From: Segatella copri
GTDB taxonomy: Bacteria > Bacteroidota > Bacteroidia > Bacteroidales > Bacteroidaceae
Assembly: GCF_009495355.1 (NCBI RefSeq)
Contig: NZ_VZAD01000061.1
Location: 62,001-126,000 of the forward strand
Reading direction: 5' to 3'
Length of the DNA stretch: 64,000 nucleotides
Shown here: piece by piece, positions 25,106-63,560 of the stretch
Layout: every line of letters begins with the position of its first letter
Numbering within the stretch: the first letter of the stretch is position 1
Made by a program: the position numbers and the translations under genes
Notes under the pieces: model-generated
Seen by the model: the letters and a program-made list of their open reading frames with translations, nothing else
What the model was told of the DNA's origin: nothing
Databases searched by the model: none

Positions 25106-25430
25106 TTTGGTGGCTCATCAGATTTTTAATACATTTGCCATTGGTTAGTGACAGGGCAGGTGAAAGTCCTCGCTTGAAGTCGCTATGATGCAGAGAAACA
25201 AGATAATCTTGTGGACACGAGCAAACTATTCAGTTCTGTAGGTTGAAATCTGGTAAATTGAAACGTAGAAAGAACGCGAATTTGTTTGAGCGAGTCTGCG
25301 CCATCATATGGTGTGGATTCCTCTTTCGCATTTTCTTTTCTACGGGTTTTACCAGAGCCTAACTTACAAGGAAGTGAAGAAAGTAGGGGTTCACGCCATT
25401 CTTTTTTCACTTATGGACCATTATGAACTT
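25106..25430 (+). ncRNA. Candidate non-coding transcript upstream of the island
   Basis: A well-formed promoter (TTTG 25106-25109, 20-base spacer, TACATTTGC 25130-25138) predicts a start near 25145. The following 285 bases have no start codon with a convincing ORF, contain a palindrome ACAAGAT-A-ATCTTGT at about 25202-25216, and end before a second promoter (25432-25460). I do not recognise the RNA. Confidence 0.35.
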
Positions 25431-58090: not shown

Positions 58091-58648
58091 ATGCGATTAC
58101 CTGAATATATAATAAAGATGTTACGGAAAAAGTCGGGGAATGATTTGTATTTGCCGTCTGACTGTGAATTTCTCTCGCTTGATATAGAGAGTAATTTAGG
58201 AATCCATATTGGTGCTACAACTCTAAAGCGCCTTTTAGGATTTGCAAATGATGAACGTACTCCTCATGCCAGCACCCTTGAAGTATTGGCAAAATATCTT
58301 GGGTATGTTCATTGGGAAGATGTTGTAAATCAAGAGGAAAAATATAGTTCGGATTTTGATACTCCTGAGGACGAAATACGTGCGGCTAATCTGACTGTAG
58401 GTGATCGGGTAGATATAACTTATTTGCCAGACCGGCATGTAGTTTTTGAGTATGTGGGAGATGATTATTTTGTTGTGGTAGAGCGAGAGGGAAACAAATT
58501 GGAACTTGGTGATCGTTTGCAAATCCAGAATTTTATCCTGCATCATCCTTTTTATGCAAGGAATGTTTATCGGGGAGATGAATGTCTGGGTCCCTATTCT
58601 GCTGCCGTTGTTTCAGGGATAGATACGTTAAAGCTGATAGAGAAATGA
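58091..58648 (+). CDS. HTH-like regulatory protein paired with the kinase
   Basis: 185 residues. The N-terminal 75 residues resemble a helical DNA-binding-like domain frequent in Bacteroidota (LSLDIESNLGIHIGATTLKR, LLGFANDERTPHASTLEVLA-KYLGY). The C-terminal half is beta-rich (GDRVDITYLPDRHVVFEYVG, KLELGDRLQIQNFILHHPFY), perhaps sensory. Its stop overlaps the ATG of the kinase gene, so the two proteins are made together and may act as a pair. Confidence 0.65.
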   Translation: MRLPEYIIKMLRKKSGNDLYLPSDCEFLSLDIESNLGIHIGATTLKRLLGFANDERTPHASTLEVLAKYLGYVHWEDVVNQEEKYSSDFDTPEDEIRAANLTVGDRVDITYLPDRHVVFEYVGDDYFVVVEREGNKLELGDRLQIQNFILHHPFYARNVYRGDECLGPYSAAVVSGIDTLKLIEK

Positions 58649-59883
58649 TGGATTATTCTTGTTTTTCTGATAACCAGCAGTCTTGTTTGGCGGAACCCTT
58701 GCCCGTTTCAGGCTTTATATGTGAGGCTTACCGTGTGAAGATATATGGTAAACTTCATTTTTTGAAAAAGCTAAAAAAAGAGCATGAGGACAATATTCTT
58801 TTTCGGGAGGCCTTACGGAAAGAATTTGAAATAGGTTTTCGATTAGAGCATCCCAATATTGTAAGGTATGTCTCTTTTCATGATGATGAAATCTTAATGG
58901 AGTATGTAGATGGAGAGGACTTGTTGGCTTTCTTGAAAAATCATCCTACATACTTTGAAGATGCAGAACATTTCGATAAGTTTGTTGGTCAATTATTAAG
59001 TGCTTTGCAATATCTTCATGACAATCAGGTCCTTCATCTCGATTTGAAACCAGAGAACATCATGTTGACTCGCATTGGTTGTGATGTAAAAGTGGTAGAT
59101 TTGGGCTGCTGTTATTCCGATACTTTTGTTGATTCTACTGGATATACTACGCAGTATGCTGCACCAGAACAGCTTGCCGGTAGGAAGGTGGATGTTAGAA
59201 CAGATATTTATGCTGTAGGCAAATTATTGGAATTGTTGCCACATCCTCCTGTATATAATAAGGTGATAAAAAGGTGTTTGAATAAAAATCCTCAAGACCG
59301 TTATCCGAGCATTGCAGATTTAAAGGCAGCTTTGGCAACAAAGAAGATAGTAAGAAAAAATATGATGTGGGTTGCATCTATAACCGTTGTGGTATTTTCC
59401 TTTCTATTGCTTTCTTTCGTGTTCAAGTTCTCTTCAGTGCCGAATTCGGCAATAAAAAATACGTCAGTTCAGGAGGAGGCTGATACAATTAAACATCTCA
59501 TCCAGAATCCGCAGAAATCAAAGAATCCAACTGCAAATCCCATTGTTGTACAGAATTCTCGTCCGGCAGTTTCGACTGTCCGGCAGAATGCAAAAAGTCA
59601 CAATTGGCAAAAGGAGATGGATGCCGCATTGGATAAAGTTTATAGACAGACAATAAGTTCTTTTTGCGATTCCATCTTTCCATCACCAACAGTAGGATTG
59701 GCATGGAAGACAAAAAGTTCAGAATTTCATCATCAGGTCATGAAGATTACATCAGATTTTCATGCAAAGTATCCCGAAGTGGAGGAATCATTGCTCTTTG
59801 CTTATGCAGAGAATAATTTTCAGAGTGTAGTAGGATATGTGTTTGGTAAGATGCAGGATAATGGTAAAAAGGCGAATCCTTAA
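58645..59883 (+). CDS. Transmembrane serine/threonine protein kinase
   Basis: 412 residues; start at the ATG overlapping the previous stop (ATGA). The Hanks-type kinase domain has the ATP-binding Lys in HFLKKL (about 41), catalytic HLDLKPEN (131-138; Leu replaces the usual Arg before the Asp, a non-RD kinase), DLG for DFG (152-154) and APEQ (173-176). The P-loop is degenerate (SGFICEAYRV). One membrane segment lies at 241-260, followed by a 150-residue C-terminal region expected outside the inner membrane that may sense envelope state. It is probably the sensor of this cluster. A terminator follows. Confidence 0.85.
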   Translation: MMDYSCFSDNQQSCLAEPLPVSGFICEAYRVKIYGKLHFLKKLKKEHEDNILFREALRKEFEIGFRLEHPNIVRYVSFHDDEILMEYVDGEDLLAFLKNHPTYFEDAEHFDKFVGQLLSALQYLHDNQVLHLDLKPENIMLTRIGCDVKVVDLGCCYSDTFVDSTGYTTQYAAPEQLAGRKVDVRTDIYAVGKLLELLPHPPVYNKVIKRCLNKNPQDRYPSIADLKAALATKKIVRKNMMWVASITVVVFSFLLLSFVFKFSSVPNSAIKNTSVQEEADTIKHLIQNPQKSKNPTANPIVVQNSRPAVSTVRQNAKSHNWQKEMDAALDKVYRQTISSFCDSIFPSPTVGLAWKTKSSEFHHQVMKITSDFHAKYPEVEESLLFAYAENNFQSVVGYVFGKMQDNGKKANP

Positions 59884-59888
59884 AGCGA

Positions 59889-59943
59889 AAAAATGGAAAT
59901 GGAAGAAATGGTCGGAAACCTTTCTTCTGTTTCCATTTTAATT
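59889..59943 (+). terminator. Terminator of the kinase operon
   Basis: AAAATGGAAAtGGAAGAAA and TTTCTTCtgTTTCCATTTT form a near-perfect long stem, 6 bases after the stop codon, followed by AATTTT. Confidence 0.85.
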
Positions 59944-60039
59944 TTGTACCTTTGCCCTCGATAAAAAAACTATATAGCCCACGTCGTATAAGCTATAGGA
60001 CTTATTTTGGAATAAAATTTAAAAAAAGTTTCAGAAAAG

Positions 60040-60072
60040 TTTGGTAGTGTGGATAGTTTTCTATATATTTGC
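60040..60072 (+). promoter_or_regulatory. Promoter of leader element copy 1
   Basis: TTTG (60040-60043), 20 bases, TATATTTGC (60064-60072). The same arrangement precedes copy 2. Confidence 0.8.
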
Positions 60073-60099
60073 GGTATGTTAAACAATTAAATTGTAGAA

Positions 60100-60330
60100 T
60101 ATGACATAAACAAATAAAGACATATAGGAAAATGAAGCGTTAGCTTTTTGTTCTTGCTTTCTGAAAATCGCCAAATTTAGAAGAAGCCACAAGAGTAAAA
60201 GTTATACGCTCACGTCTGCAATACGGCGTGGGCTTTTACTCGTATTATGTGGCTTATGGTGTTTGGCGATACCTCAGGAGGCGTAGACGAAGTGAATGGT
60301 TCACGCCTTTTTTCTGTCTATACCTTTTTG
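60100..60330 (+). ncRNA. Structured leader RNA, copy 1
   Basis: About 230 nt conserved with copy 2 (62268-62492). Core hairpin: AAGCCACA-AGTAAAAG pairs with CTTTTACT-TGTGGCTT, enclosing GCTCACGTC/GGCGTGGGC. A second hairpin GGCGT...ACGCC followed by T6 (60281-60315) looks like an intrinsic terminator. Differences between copies keep pairing (T-G to C-G in the inner stem; A-T to G-T in the outer). The next gene starts 77 bases after and has no clear promoter of its own, so the RNA is either a regulated leader or a separate small RNA with read-through. Confidence 0.7.
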
Positions 60331-60406
60331 ACCTTATGACCTGACAATCGCTTACTATAGTAGGCTCTGTGAATAATTTTATGTTAAACTATTAAATTCG
60401 TAAATT

Positions 60407-60973
60407 ATGAAAATCTGGAGATTAGTATCTGGCATTTTGTCAATGATTTCATTTTTGATTATCACCTTTCAATCATGTGCGGTGGGTTTTGTAAATGCAA
60501 TAGAAGAAAACGCTAAAGACACAAGTGATGTTGCGGGCTTGTTGGTTGCTTTTGGCTTGTTGATTTCGGGTATTGTAGCAACTTCGCTTTGGAAGAAAAA
60601 CGGTAAGAGCGACGATATCTCTCTTATTGTTTTATATGGATTGACAGCTCTGATAGGATTTTTCAATTTAGGCACTTTTAGTGATTTAGTTGTATGGTCT
60701 TCTTGGGCTTTGATTTGTGCAGTGATGGCAGCTATAGCACTTTATCTTCATTCTCAAGAAGTTGGAGATAATGATTATGTATCTTCGTCCACGCCTTCTT
60801 CAAATGTTTCAATGAAGGAATGTCCAAATTGTCACGCCGTAATCGACGCGGGAAGTGCTTTTTGTAGCTCATGTGGCTTTAGATTTCCTGTTCAAACTTT
60901 TTGTAGGATATGCGGAAAGCAATTGAAAGAAAATGAAGCTTTTTGTACGAATTGTGGTACAAAGCGAGAATAA
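60407..60973 (+). CDS. Membrane protein with two C-terminal zinc ribbons
   Basis: 188 residues. Four hydrophobic segments occupy about residues 5-120 (LVSGILSMISFLIITFQSCA; ISLIVLYGLTALIGFFNLG; WSSWALICAVMAAIALYL). Two double-CxxC zinc ribbons follow: CPNC...CSSC (about 138-160) and CRIC...CTNC (about 166-185). The ribbons should lie in the cytoplasm. Related zinc ribbons head the next operon genes. It follows leader copy 1. Function unknown. Confidence 0.75.
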   Translation: MKIWRLVSGILSMISFLIITFQSCAVGFVNAIEENAKDTSDVAGLLVAFGLLISGIVATSLWKKNGKSDDISLIVLYGLTALIGFFNLGTFSDLVVWSSWALICAVMAAIALYLHSQEVGDNDYVSSSTPSSNVSMKECPNCHAVIDAGSAFCSSCGFRFPVQTFCRICGKQLKENEAFCTNCGTKRE

Positions 60974-61100
60974 ATGTACAGACCAGAATTGAATTTTATC
61001 ATGTATGATTATCTCTACTTTTGTTTTCTCTAATTGGTGGGCAAAGCAAAAGTAGAGAAGTAGAAAGGAAAATTAGTACAAACACTGAAAACTACAAGCT

Positions 61101-61250
61101 ATGAAACTATGTGTTAATGGTCATTTGGTAGATGATTTTAAAGAAGAAAGAGCTTGGGTGGCTGCTGTCAAAAATGGAAAATGTGGATATATAAATGCAA
61201 ATGGGCATGAAGTTGTAGCATTTTTGATTATCTCAACTGAAATTTTTTAG
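61101..61250 (+). pseudogene. Short WG-repeat-like fragment
   Basis: 49-codon frame MKLCVNGHLVDDFKEERAWV, then AAVKNGKCGYINANGHEVV, matching one WG repeat (W...V..NGKxGYI...G). It then ends in AFLIISTEIF-stop, unlike the repeat. WG proteins usually have many units, so this is probably a truncated gene or a minimal relic. Confidence 0.5.
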
Positions 61251-61274
61251 AAAAATATATTAAAGTAAGATTTT

Positions 61275-62147
61275 ATGAAAAAGTGTCCTAATTGTGGAGC
61301 CATAATAAGTGACGATAGTCTCTTTTGTGGAAAATGTGGTTGCTTGTTGAACAAGCAGCAGATAAAAACACCAGCTGGTGAACAGATGAACAATAATGAA
61401 GACTTGTTGGAAAATAATGAAAGAAATGTTAGAAAGTATTATGTCGTAGCCGGGGGTGTCGTAGTCTTGTTGGTTGCCCTTGGCTTTTATTTATTTAAGA
61501 GTCATGGTAGACAGGCTGGTAACCAAAATATGTTGGATTCTCTTTCGGATACCATCTCAACTATGGAAATGCAAGATTCGGTAGAAGTGACAGAAGAACT
61601 TTCTGCGAATGATATACTGAAACGTCATCCTGGCTTTCAGTTATTGTGCTCTGTTTCTGGTGATTTTGATGGAGATGGGAAAGAAGAAACCTTATATGCA
61701 ATTAATCCTAAAAGTGATGAAGGTCCTCATATCGAATATGTTTATTTCTCAAAAAAGAAATTTCCTTCTATTAAGGTTCAGACGCATGGTATTTATGTAC
61801 CTAATAGTAAACCTAAAAATGCAGGAGACTTGGATGGGGATGGAGGCGATGAAATCGCATTTTATTCTTCTGGATATTCGTCCAGTTGGAATGATTACTA
61901 TATCTGGTCATATAAAAATGGGAAATGGATAGTGCCCATAAAACCTGTAAATTTGCCAGACTGGGCTTTGGAAGACGGCTATGTGCCTGTAAGAAAAAGC
62001 TACAAGAAAGGTTATGTAGAAATTGATGACAATCAAGAAATGGTAGATGTTGATGATTCTGTTTATAACGAAAATACCCATGCTGGTTTGCAATTTGAAC
62101 GGAAAATAGTGAAGTTTAACAATAAAGGTTATAAAGTAGATTATTAA
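61275..62147 (+). CDS. Zinc-ribbon, single-pass membrane protein with FG-GAP-like exported domain
   Basis: 290 residues. N-terminal zinc ribbon (CPNCGAIISDDSLFCGKCG, residues 4-22), a linker, one membrane segment (about 55-75, YYVVAGGVVVLLVALGFYLF), then a 210-residue outer part with two Asp-rich calcium-type loops, GDFDGDGKEE (about 133) and GDLDGDGGDE (about 183), as in integrin-like FG-GAP repeats. The layout suggests a cytoplasmic sensor or docking ribbon joined to a periplasmic beta-propeller-like domain. It is in the first zinc-ribbon operon. Confidence 0.75.
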   Translation: MKKCPNCGAIISDDSLFCGKCGCLLNKQQIKTPAGEQMNNNEDLLENNERNVRKYYVVAGGVVVLLVALGFYLFKSHGRQAGNQNMLDSLSDTISTMEMQDSVEVTEELSANDILKRHPGFQLLCSVSGDFDGDGKEETLYAINPKSDEGPHIEYVYFSKKKFPSIKVQTHGIYVPNSKPKNAGDLDGDGGDEIAFYSSGYSSSWNDYYIWSYKNGKWIVPIKPVNLPDWALEDGYVPVRKSYKKGYVEIDDNQEMVDVDDSVYNENTHAGLQFERKIVKFNNKGYKVDY

Positions 62148-62209
62148 TTTAAAAATGGTCATATAATGATTAGTTCGTTGATAATTCGATAAAAATAGTT
62201 ATAGTTTTT

Positions 62210-62241
62210 TTTGTTATATGATTATTTTTTTATATATTTGC
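62210..62241 (+). promoter_or_regulatory. Promoter of leader element copy 2
   Basis: TTTG (62210-62213), 19 bases, TATATTTGC (62233-62241). Confidence 0.75.
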
Positions 62242-62267
62242 CGTATGAATCAATTAAAGAGTTTGAT

Positions 62268-62492
62268 ATGACATAAACAAATAAAGACATATAGAAAATG
62301 AAGCGTTAGCTTTTTGTTCTTGCTTCCTGAAAATCGCCAAATTGAAAAGAAGCCACAAAGAGTAAAGGTTTGACGCTCACGCCTGCAATACGGCGTGGGC
62401 TTTTACTTGTATTATGTGGCTTATTGTGTTAGGTGATACCTCAGGAGGCGTAGACGAAGTTGTTGGTCCACGCCTATATTTTTGTCTATACT
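62268..62492 (+). ncRNA. Structured leader RNA, copy 2
   Basis: Same element as at 60100-60330. Identical stretches include AATGAAGCGTTAGCTTTTTG, CTGAAAATCGCCAAAT and GATACCTCAGGAGGCGTAGA. The outer stem AAGCCACA-AGTAAAGG/CTTTTACT-TGTGGCTT and inner CTCACGCC/GGCGTGGG are kept. The final hairpin GGCGT...ACGCC is followed by a weaker TATATTTTT. The gene for the SH3-like protein starts 58 bases later. Confidence 0.7.
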
Positions 62493-62549
62493 TTTAGAAC
62501 TTTAGGACCTCTATAGAGTAAAAGTACAATTTTGTGATTACCTATACAT

Positions 62550-63560
62550 ATGAGAACGAAATGTCAACATTGCAACACTACGCTTCAATTCGATGAGCGT
62601 AAATATATAAGAAACAATTGGGTAGAGTATACATGTCCTGTTTGTGGAAATCAAGTCAGATTTCAGTATGGTGTGGCTGATCAACATATTAGTGTGACAA
62701 GTCAGGATAGTCCTGTATTACAGCCTGTTAAATCAAATTTTCAAAGTCAACCAACGCCAGTTTCTCATCAGAATATAGTTCCACCTGTATATGAAGAAGA
62801 GCAACAACGTCGTTCGCCTCTTATTTGGCTTGTTCCTGTTCTTGTATTGTTGTTTTGCGCAGTCATAGGTGGGTATTTTTACTATAATAAGGTTTATTTG
62901 CCTGCAAAAATAGATCGTGAAGCGCCTCGGTATTATACGATTTCAAATATGACCAATCTCCGTTCTTCTAAATCGGCAGGTGCCGAATACAACAAAATAG
63001 GGTCAATACCATTTGGTAGCGAGCTGATCACATATTCTCACGAGGCGGATTGGAGTGAAGTAAAAGATGCGACTGGCAAACGCGGATTCATCGCATCAAA
63101 CTATATTGTAGAGAAGTCTGATTTCTACCGACTGAATAGTATTTTTGGTGATGCCTCATCGCGTGAAATTATTCAGACAGTTAAATGTCGTAGAGCCCTA
63201 TTGAATTATTTTAAAGAACATAATTATATAGGAAGCATTTCTCAGAGTGAGTTAGGATCTGTTACGCCACAAGTTGTGCCTAATTCTGACAATCAGTGGC
63301 AAGTATTTACTCGCTCCAAAGGAGTTACACCTAACAGTGTCTGGTTTGGTCGTGCAATTAATAGTGATTCTAAATTTACAGACTTTGCTGTCATCATTAC
63401 AAATATTAAAACAGGAGCTCACCGCTTTCTGCTGTTCTGTTTTGATGAGACAGAGAAACCTACATTGGTTTATGAGGAGAATACAAGTGCAAAATACATA
63501 GAAAATGTGTATTGTTATGATGGCTCGGATGTAGAAGTTGACTATTATTATGCAAGATAA
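62550..63560 (+). CDS. Zinc-ribbon, single-pass membrane protein with SH3-like domain
   Basis: 336 residues. The N-terminal zinc finger (CQHCNTTLQFDERKY ... CPVCGNQVRF, residues 5-45) precedes a Gln/Pro linker and one membrane segment (about 92-112, LIWLVPVLVLLFCAVIGGYF). Residues about 130-195 form an SH3_3-type domain (MTNLRSSKSAGAEYNKIGSI, GSELITYSHEADWSEVKDAT, GKRGFIASNYI), which in envelope proteins binds peptidoglycan. The rest is unassigned. The next gene, an L,D-transpeptidase, overlaps it by 11 bases, which supports a cell-wall role. Confidence 0.78.
   Translation: MRTKCQHCNTTLQFDERKYIRNNWVEYTCPVCGNQVRFQYGVADQHISVTSQDSPVLQPVKSNFQSQPTPVSHQNIVPPVYEEEQQRRSPLIWLVPVLVLLFCAVIGGYFYYNKVYLPAKIDREAPRYYTISNMTNLRSSKSAGAEYNKIGSIPFGSELITYSHEADWSEVKDATGKRGFIASNYIVEKSDFYRLNSIFGDASSREIIQTVKCRRALLNYFKEHNYIGSISQSELGSVTPQVVPNSDNQWQVFTRSKGVTPNSVWFGRAINSDSKFTDFAVIITNIKTGAHRFLLFCFDETEKPTLVYEENTSAKYIENVYCYDGSDVEVDYYYAR

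Follow-up and report, generated by a model that had tools for sequence, protein, structure and literature searches.

Two copies of a multicopy Bacteroidota leader RNA in Segatella copri: a conserved fold, a start-stop mini-ORF and probable competing helices at the terminator

Two structured RNA copies at one locus

A window of 64,000 nucleotides (nt) of Segatella copri (contig NZ_VZAD01000061.1) was analyzed for a structured leader RNA that an earlier note, made from the letters of the window, had put at about 230 nt and described as duplicated and as having its own promoter and terminator-like hairpin. Pairwise alignment located both copies where they had been proposed, 2,167 nt apart and with 91% identity across query positions 5-226, and the fold of each surpassed 200 of 200 dinucleotide shuffles (z of -5.7 for copy 1 and -6.6 for copy 2). 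Two covariance models were used, R1 (196 positions), which was built from 22 sequences (alignment A4), and the broader R2. Copy 1 extends over window positions 60115-60320 (187.4 bits with R1, 169.6 bits with R2) and copy 2 over 62282-62488 (172.3 bits with R1, expectation value [E] 2.4e-31; 151.8 bits with R2). These and all other features given below lie on the forward (+) strand unless marked otherwise.

Both copies are preceded by a promoter-like TAnnTTTG (-7 type) element (60064-60071 for copy 1; 62233-62240 for copy 2) and a start-stop mini open reading frame (mini-ORF), ATG ACA TAA (60101-60109; 62268-62276). Within copy 1 the alignment revealed a conserved GACATATAG element (60119-60127), which is followed by GAAGCGTTAGCTTTT (60134-60148), examined by permutation and column counts as either the 5′ strand of a possible closing helix, P0, or a small hairpin, H0. 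The covarying helices P1 to P5 come next, with the 5′ strands of P1 and P2 at 60158-60175, P3 at 60184-60191 pairing with 60248-60255, P4 at 60193-60201 pairing with 60233-60241, and P5 formed by P5a (60208-60216) and P5b (60225-60233), base 60233 being shared by P4 and the end of P5b as drawn. The 3′ strand of P2 lies between GGY/RCC pairs (60258-60273), and the copy ends with a terminator (60280-60313) composed of a 5′ arm Ta (60280-60288), a 3′ arm Tb (60298-60308), and a U-tract (60308-60313). In copy 2, the P5 hairpin (62375-62400), placed by covariation and sequence, consists of P5a at 62375-62383 and P5b at 62392-62400, and the terminator (62447-62483) of Ta at 62447-62455, Tb at 62465-62475, and a U-rich tract.

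All of the parts named in the earlier note were recovered: its long stem, present as AAGCCACA/TGTGGCTT, is P3; its GGCGT/ACGCC hairpin with a T-run occurs in both copies; and a TAnnTTTG element precedes each copy. Its inner stem, GCTCACGTC or GCTCACGCC opposite GGCGTGGGC, was likewise found, as P5, while the pair-preserving change ascribed to it proved to be one-sided (U-G/C-G).

Homologues and covariation of the fold

The two copies are near certain, on the strength of sequence and structure comparison, to belong to one large Bacteroidota RNA family. The covariance-model search that had been proposed as a check returned homologues in many genomes, with compensatory changes among 22 and 99 sequences, and the RNA is not tied to this locus. 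R1 matched 220/299 genomes of the genus and 148/393 genomes of the order at E ≤ 1e-3, and 44/395 genomes of the phylum at the stricter E ≤ 1e-6, with no match in 351; by blastn the RNA was found in 26/100 genomes, the S. copri genome itself counted. An exact 24-mer search of named genomes gave one match, in a Prevotella metagenome-assembled genome from goat reticulum (L031), and the genus is probably Prevotella on this basis. There were 2-20 R1 matches per genome in 12 chosen genomes (E ≤ 1e-6), and in the S. copri genome R1 marked 5 places at E ≤ 1 and R2 marked 11 at E ≤ 0.01, the weakest of them doubtful. Because only 6 or 8 candidates were scored in each genome of the large surveys, the copy numbers from these are minimum values. 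By hand count, the best E was above 1e-8 in 62/220 genus and 30/148 order genomes, and some weak matches may be due to chance, since matches on the opposite strand reach 36.7 bits.

In the R1 structure, 21 of 46 pairs were changed on both sides, with a covariation of 0.356 compared with 0.148 after shuffling (0/500 as high). Alignment A7, of 99 members, had 46 of 50 pairs changed on both sides and a covariation of 0.471 versus 0.146 (0/500), slid partners scoring at most 0.073; 95.4% of its cells were paired versus 77.3% when shuffled and at most 43.3% when partners were slid. The structure scored on A7 joins P1-P5 and H0 with the terminator and the GGY/RCC pairs. Having been fitted to R1, A7 favors the pairs of that model; P5b:Tb, P0, H0, and GGY/RCC are absent from it. 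An in-house G-test with average product correction ranked pairs of P1, P2, and P3 top, and 6/6 pairs of P3 were changed on both sides. The GGY/RCC pairs were paired in 94.5% of cases, with C-G replacing U-A in 6 members and 1/3 pairs changed on both sides; as they flank the P2 3′ strand they would form a pseudoknot or an alternative hairpin, and a pseudoknot in the fold is probable. Primary sequence was conserved in GACATATAG, GAAGCGTTAGCTT, and the P5 stem.

The evidence for P0 was mixed, with z of -6.4 over all members by permutation, no significance in the divergent subset (371/2000 permutations), and weak column counts (two-sided changes in 5 cells, and 85.7% still paired after a +3 slide), so the closing helix is only suggestive. 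Two further candidates were rejected: (i) the H0 hairpin AAGC/GCUU, which had no permutation support (z of -1.7, 103/2000); and (ii) base pairing between H0 and the GAAGU loop of the terminator, whose self score of 10.79 was below the permuted mean of 11.15 (1955/2000 permutations at least as high) and which had no support in the odd-H0 subset either (713/2000), some rows of this test being mis-parsed and some opposite-strand matches being among its input.

A start-stop mini-ORF precedes the fold

The start-stop, which was not reported in the earlier note, is carried by most Bacteroidales members. The survey covered 129 distinct RNAs, 4 of which had no anchor; another 18, from other orders of the class and with the genus inferred, were set apart by locus number as Flavobacterium-like, and two of the remaining 107 (L186 and L203) do not belong to the order. 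An ATG followed by 0-3 codons and a stop was found before the fold in 86/107 members, compared with 28.2 expected from dinucleotide shuffles. When the ATG nearest position -38 was taken (91 members), an in-frame stop followed within 3 codons in 84/91, while the other frames gave 10 and 28. The intervening codons differ among members (ACA, AGA, GGC, AAA, GTA AAA, ATC AAT TCA, or none), which argues that shortness and not the peptide is conserved; regulatory codons of a leader ORF were not found in the mini-ORF, 14/91 members having no codon at all between start and stop. The start-stop was also checked in a held-out set of 41 members, some from genomes that had supplied other members (1/41 had no anchor and 7/40 no ATG). 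It was in frame in 31/33 held-out members with an ATG, 19/19 from the genus and 12/14 from the order, whereas the two other frames gave 7/33 and 3/33; 7/21 order members had no ATG.

The initiation region of the mini-ORFs resembled that of genes. The count of A at -14 to -12 was 2.01 for mini-ORFs, 2.09 for downstream genes, and 1.23 for shuffled sequence (70 mini-ORFs, 74 genes), and an initiation-region score within the genus was 5.77 for mini-ORFs and 5.81 for genes versus -5.99 for internal ATGs (41 mini-ORFs, 180 gene starts, and 225 internal ATGs, the last also differing in base composition). The ATG is located about 30-40 nt upstream of the P0 strand; given the size of the ribosome footprint, a ribosome occupying the start-stop would reach to about the beginning of GACATATAG and stay outside the fold. 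The mini-ORF may serve as a sensor, as 5′ protection, or as a spacing device.

Upstream of the mini-ORF, TAnnTTTG was detected at -115 to -55 in 65/115 anchored members, against a background of 0.04 per random 68-nt window, and the mini-ORF began 25-61 nt past the start of this element in 43/50 members with both. Between the U-tract and the gene, TAnnTTTG was present in 4/67 members with a close ORF. The earlier note had stated that the operons lack another clear promoter, which fits copy 1 better than copy 2, where a TAnnTTTG-like site, a possible second promoter, falls within the U-rich tract (62477-62484; 66 nt before the gene).

Complementarity between the terminator 3′ arm and a P5 strand

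A U-tract, defined as at least 7 T in the 10 nt after the stem, was found in 91/99 members compared with 1.5% of random 10-mers, and was kept in 40/41 held-out members and in 25/31 members with a local hairpin weaker than -3 kcal/mol. In both copies a terminator scan also picks out the P5 hairpin with the UUUU after it. The 3′ arm Tb, moreover, was found to be complementary in 99/99 members to P5b, one strand of the central hairpin, a relationship the earlier note had missed. Tb has three possible partners: Ta, P5b, and the P0 5′ strand.

P5b:Tb complementarity surpassed 2000/2000 permutations, with z of -8.8 over all members and -8.7 outside the genus, while control pairings over all members gave z of 0.0 (P5a:Tb) and 2.0 (P3a:Tb); in the held-out set z was -3.1 (0/2000) and the control 1.9. 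For the local hairpin, Ta:Tb, z was -4.5 in the genus and -1.2 outside. Column counts found P5b:Tb 96.5% paired (0/500 shuffles as high), and by eye matched P5b and Tb changes occur in the divergent members L203, L215, L213, and L186. The mean strand-to-strand duplex energy was -14.95 kcal/mol for P5b:Tb and -6.25 for Ta:Tb, and the folded local hairpin was weaker than P5b:Tb in 99/99 members, although this sets a duplex without loop cost against a hairpin. In copies 1 and 2, respectively, duplex energies were -16.4 and -19.1 kcal/mol for P5a:P5b, -16.8 and -19.6 for P5b:Tb, and -14.0 and -14.9 for Ta:Tb. Permutation supported both P5a:P5b and P5b:Tb, which would be mutually exclusive.

Genes downstream of the RNA

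The first gene after copy 1 (60407-60973) encodes a protein with a C-terminal double zinc ribbon according to domain matches and of a membrane nature by eye; the next (61275-62147) has zinc ribbon and FG-GAP matches, and the first after copy 2 (62550-63560) has zinc ribbon and bacterial SH3 matches. Immediately before copy 1 comes a protein kinase gene (58582-59883), and the region that contains it has matches to zinc-ribbon, SH3, and L,D-transpeptidase families. Surroundings were examined in 99 members for up to 7 kb past the RNA, a stretch cut short by contig ends in some of them. In 89/99, an ORF of 58 amino acids (aa) or more in the same direction started -60 to +450 nt from the RNA end; the median distance was 57 nt, and the start lay at 20-110 nt in 63/99. 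First proteins were exported-looking by a crude in-house signal-peptide rule in 73/89 cases (17 lipoprotein-like), compared with 167/515 other ORFs of the same loci (Fisher p 1.6e-18, optimistic because the loci are related).

The 89 first proteins matched the Pfam families LRR_5 (BspA-type; 18), LRR_8 (16), TonB plug (8), and type IX secretion system (T9SS) tail (5), and the NCBIfam families SusC/RagA (8) and T9SS tail (6). The proposed tie to zinc-ribbon membrane-protein operons was not borne out, as the commonest partners are BspA-type leucine-rich repeat (LRR; 18) and TonB plug (8) proteins, and no zinc-ribbon family is among the 25 Pfam families listed, of 67, for these downstream proteins. 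Weak copies in the S. copri genome precede, by eye, LytTR, TerB-like, membrane, and lipoprotein types; export is therefore a tendency and not a rule. Two divergent copies of this genome (L228 and L229), about 33 kb apart, have P5 loops of about 100 nt and stand before TerB-like-looking proteins, judged by eye. Two weak, possibly divergent members lie elsewhere in the window, at 25196-25410 (37.3 bits with R2; P2-like pairing with GG/CC flanks by eye) and at 1934-2227 (34.1 bits with R2; long P5 loop; followed by an ORF at 2280-2705). Members L184, L185, L187, L192, L194, and L202, from another order, were found 214-267 nt before proteins of about 1,000 aa, SusC-like as judged by eye, and have TAnnTTTG a short way upstream of the RNA.

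Comparison with known RNAs

At gathering score, none of the 4,227 models of Rfam 15 matched the RNA in the window or at 33 loci, and a scan of 59880-62560 at E ≤ 10 gave three weak matches, none over either copy; this was the Rfam comparison the earlier note had proposed. Elsewhere in the window, an abiF RNA match was detected at 1348-1385 on the reverse (-) strand (52.7 bits). In ribosome-mediated transcription attenuators such as VmlR, a short 5′ ORF, competing helices, and a terminator precede the gene, and the leader RNA resembles them in its 5′ mini-ORF, its terminator, and its probable competing helices; it differs in its larger conserved fold and unlike target genes, and it would not sense a peptide or codons, as its mini-ORF is 0-3 varying codons. 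The RNA is likely a cis-regulatory leader with a terminator, unusual in its start-stop, copy number, and spread.

No paper naming the RNA was among the matches of searches in openly licensed PMC papers; it may sit unnamed among motifs without an Rfam entry or in supplementary catalogues. The computed motifs Bacteroidales-1, Bacteroides-1, Flavo-1, Bacteroid-trp, and 6S-flavo (PMC2864571) are likewise structured RNAs of this phylum, yet no Rfam match falls on the leader RNA; GUCCY-hairpin and Bacteroides-2, which have no Rfam number in the table of that paper, lie outside this comparison. A catalogue of candidate RNAs from human microbiomes (PMC8040213) and a set of 64 structured 5′ regions in Flavobacterium psychrophilum (PMC9723704) may hold members or fragments; nothing of this description was in the passages of running text compared. 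The FopS small RNAs (sRNAs) of Bacteroides thetaiotaomicron are also multicopy Bacteroidota RNAs, but as described these paralogs are about 65-70 nt and act in trans on susC mRNAs (PMC11697453), whereas the leader RNA is about 200 nt and does not match that size. Among start-stops, 18 putative sites with an AUG and an immediate stop were reported from Ribo-seq of Campylobacter (PMC11955535, citing Escherichia coli work), but these are internal and out of frame, whereas that of the leader RNA is kept within a family upstream of genes.

Interpretation and alternatives

The proposal that the RNA is a riboregulator or small RNA stands insofar as a conserved, covarying structured RNA with a promoter-like element, a terminator, and no Rfam match lies just upstream of genes; its tie to one gene type does not. 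A cis-acting leader is favored over a free small RNA because of the fixed place 5′ of co-directional genes, and action in cis is likely. We moderately favor the reading that the RNA is the cis-acting 5′ leader of a large Bacteroidota family and works as a transcription attenuator, probably through mutually exclusive helices. Transcription would start near the TAnnTTTG element, the start-stop with its normal-looking initiation region would come next in most Bacteroidales members, and a fold of about 190 nt (P1-P5) would be followed by the U-tract terminator, a median of 57 nt before the gene. As P5b can pair with P5a, in the whole fold, or with Tb, the RNA would have two mutually exclusive states. 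The P1-P5 fold would favor read-through, perhaps aided by P0 covering Tb and the U-tract, while P5b:Tb or the local Ta:Tb hairpin would halt transcription, the state being set by a signal, which may be a ligand, a protein, or a ribosome on the start-stop.

Several observations weigh against this attenuator reading. Regarding the helices, (i) P5b:Tb is nearly invariant within the genus (z of -1.9), just 3 of its cells have two-sided changes, and of the 381 cells retained after a +3 slide 95.5% are paired as well (score 0.099 against 0.161); (ii) the permutation tests ignore phylogeny, and the duplex energies omit the cost of a loop of about 70 nt; (iii) in whole-molecule folds the P5 state is on average 11.9 kcal/mol more stable than the P5b:Tb state and is preferred in 88 of the 89 members compared (of 99, 10 having fewer than four aligned pairs), so the P5b:Tb state would need kinetic help or a signal; and (iv) in the genus the local Ta:Tb hairpin might terminate regardless of P5. 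Regarding the start-stop and gene context, 16/107 members outside the Flavobacterium-like group have no ATG in range, the Flavobacterium-like group has start-stops at the level of chance (3/18 versus 4.2 expected), several RNAs of that group stand 214-370 nt ahead of proteins of about 1,000 aa, and the TAnnTTTG-like site of copy 2 falls in its own U-rich tract.

An orphan riboswitch, whose P1-P5 fold would recognize a small molecule or a second messenger while the start-stop would be incidental or only shield the 5′ end, appears unlikely, even though the conserved fold 5′ of genes is complex, with a probable pseudoknot, and the 2-20 copies in the 12 chosen genomes precede unlike genes, as second-messenger riboswitches likewise do; the downstream genes share no obvious common metabolite, and the start-stop is kept in frame. 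A leader controlled by a protein, either an RNA-binding regulator or a NusG-type antiterminator bound to the fold, is very unlikely in our estimate and would fit the conserved primary sequence of GACATATAG, GAAGCGTTAGCTT, and the P5 stem.

Quite unlikely, too, is a family of trans-acting sRNAs with their own terminator, with downstream genes that are transcribed through read-through or from a second promoter, or that lie there by chance. The promoter-like element and terminator of the RNA, the TAnnTTTG-like site after the RNA in copy 2, and the existence of paralogous sRNA families such as FopS in Bacteroides (PMC11697453) would suit it, but a co-directional ORF is near 89/99 members, TAnnTTTG occurs in the interval in just 4/67, and FopS is about 65-70 nt long (PMC11697453). 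That the copies are a mobile or repeat DNA element and not a functional RNA is extremely improbable: they are multicopy and patchy, some near contig ends, but they carry compensatory changes in a fixed orientation to genes, and the RNA was not found in plasmid or phage collections nor in two exact-pattern scans of viral contigs.

Bacteroidota dominate gut communities. If the attenuator reading is true, this RNA would be among the commoner cis-regulatory RNA families of the phylum, found ahead of genes for surface LRR proteins, for lipoproteins, and for SusC-like transporters. A more tentative suggestion, to which we give a limited chance, is that these leaders form a phylum-wide class in which a peptide-less start-stop beside GACATATAG and P0 acts as the sensor, with ribosome initiation and immediate termination setting the attenuator. 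Were this so, the exported proteome would follow ribosome or initiation status via many exported-protein genes. The conserved start-stop raises the testable question of whether translating no peptide can be a regulatory signal.
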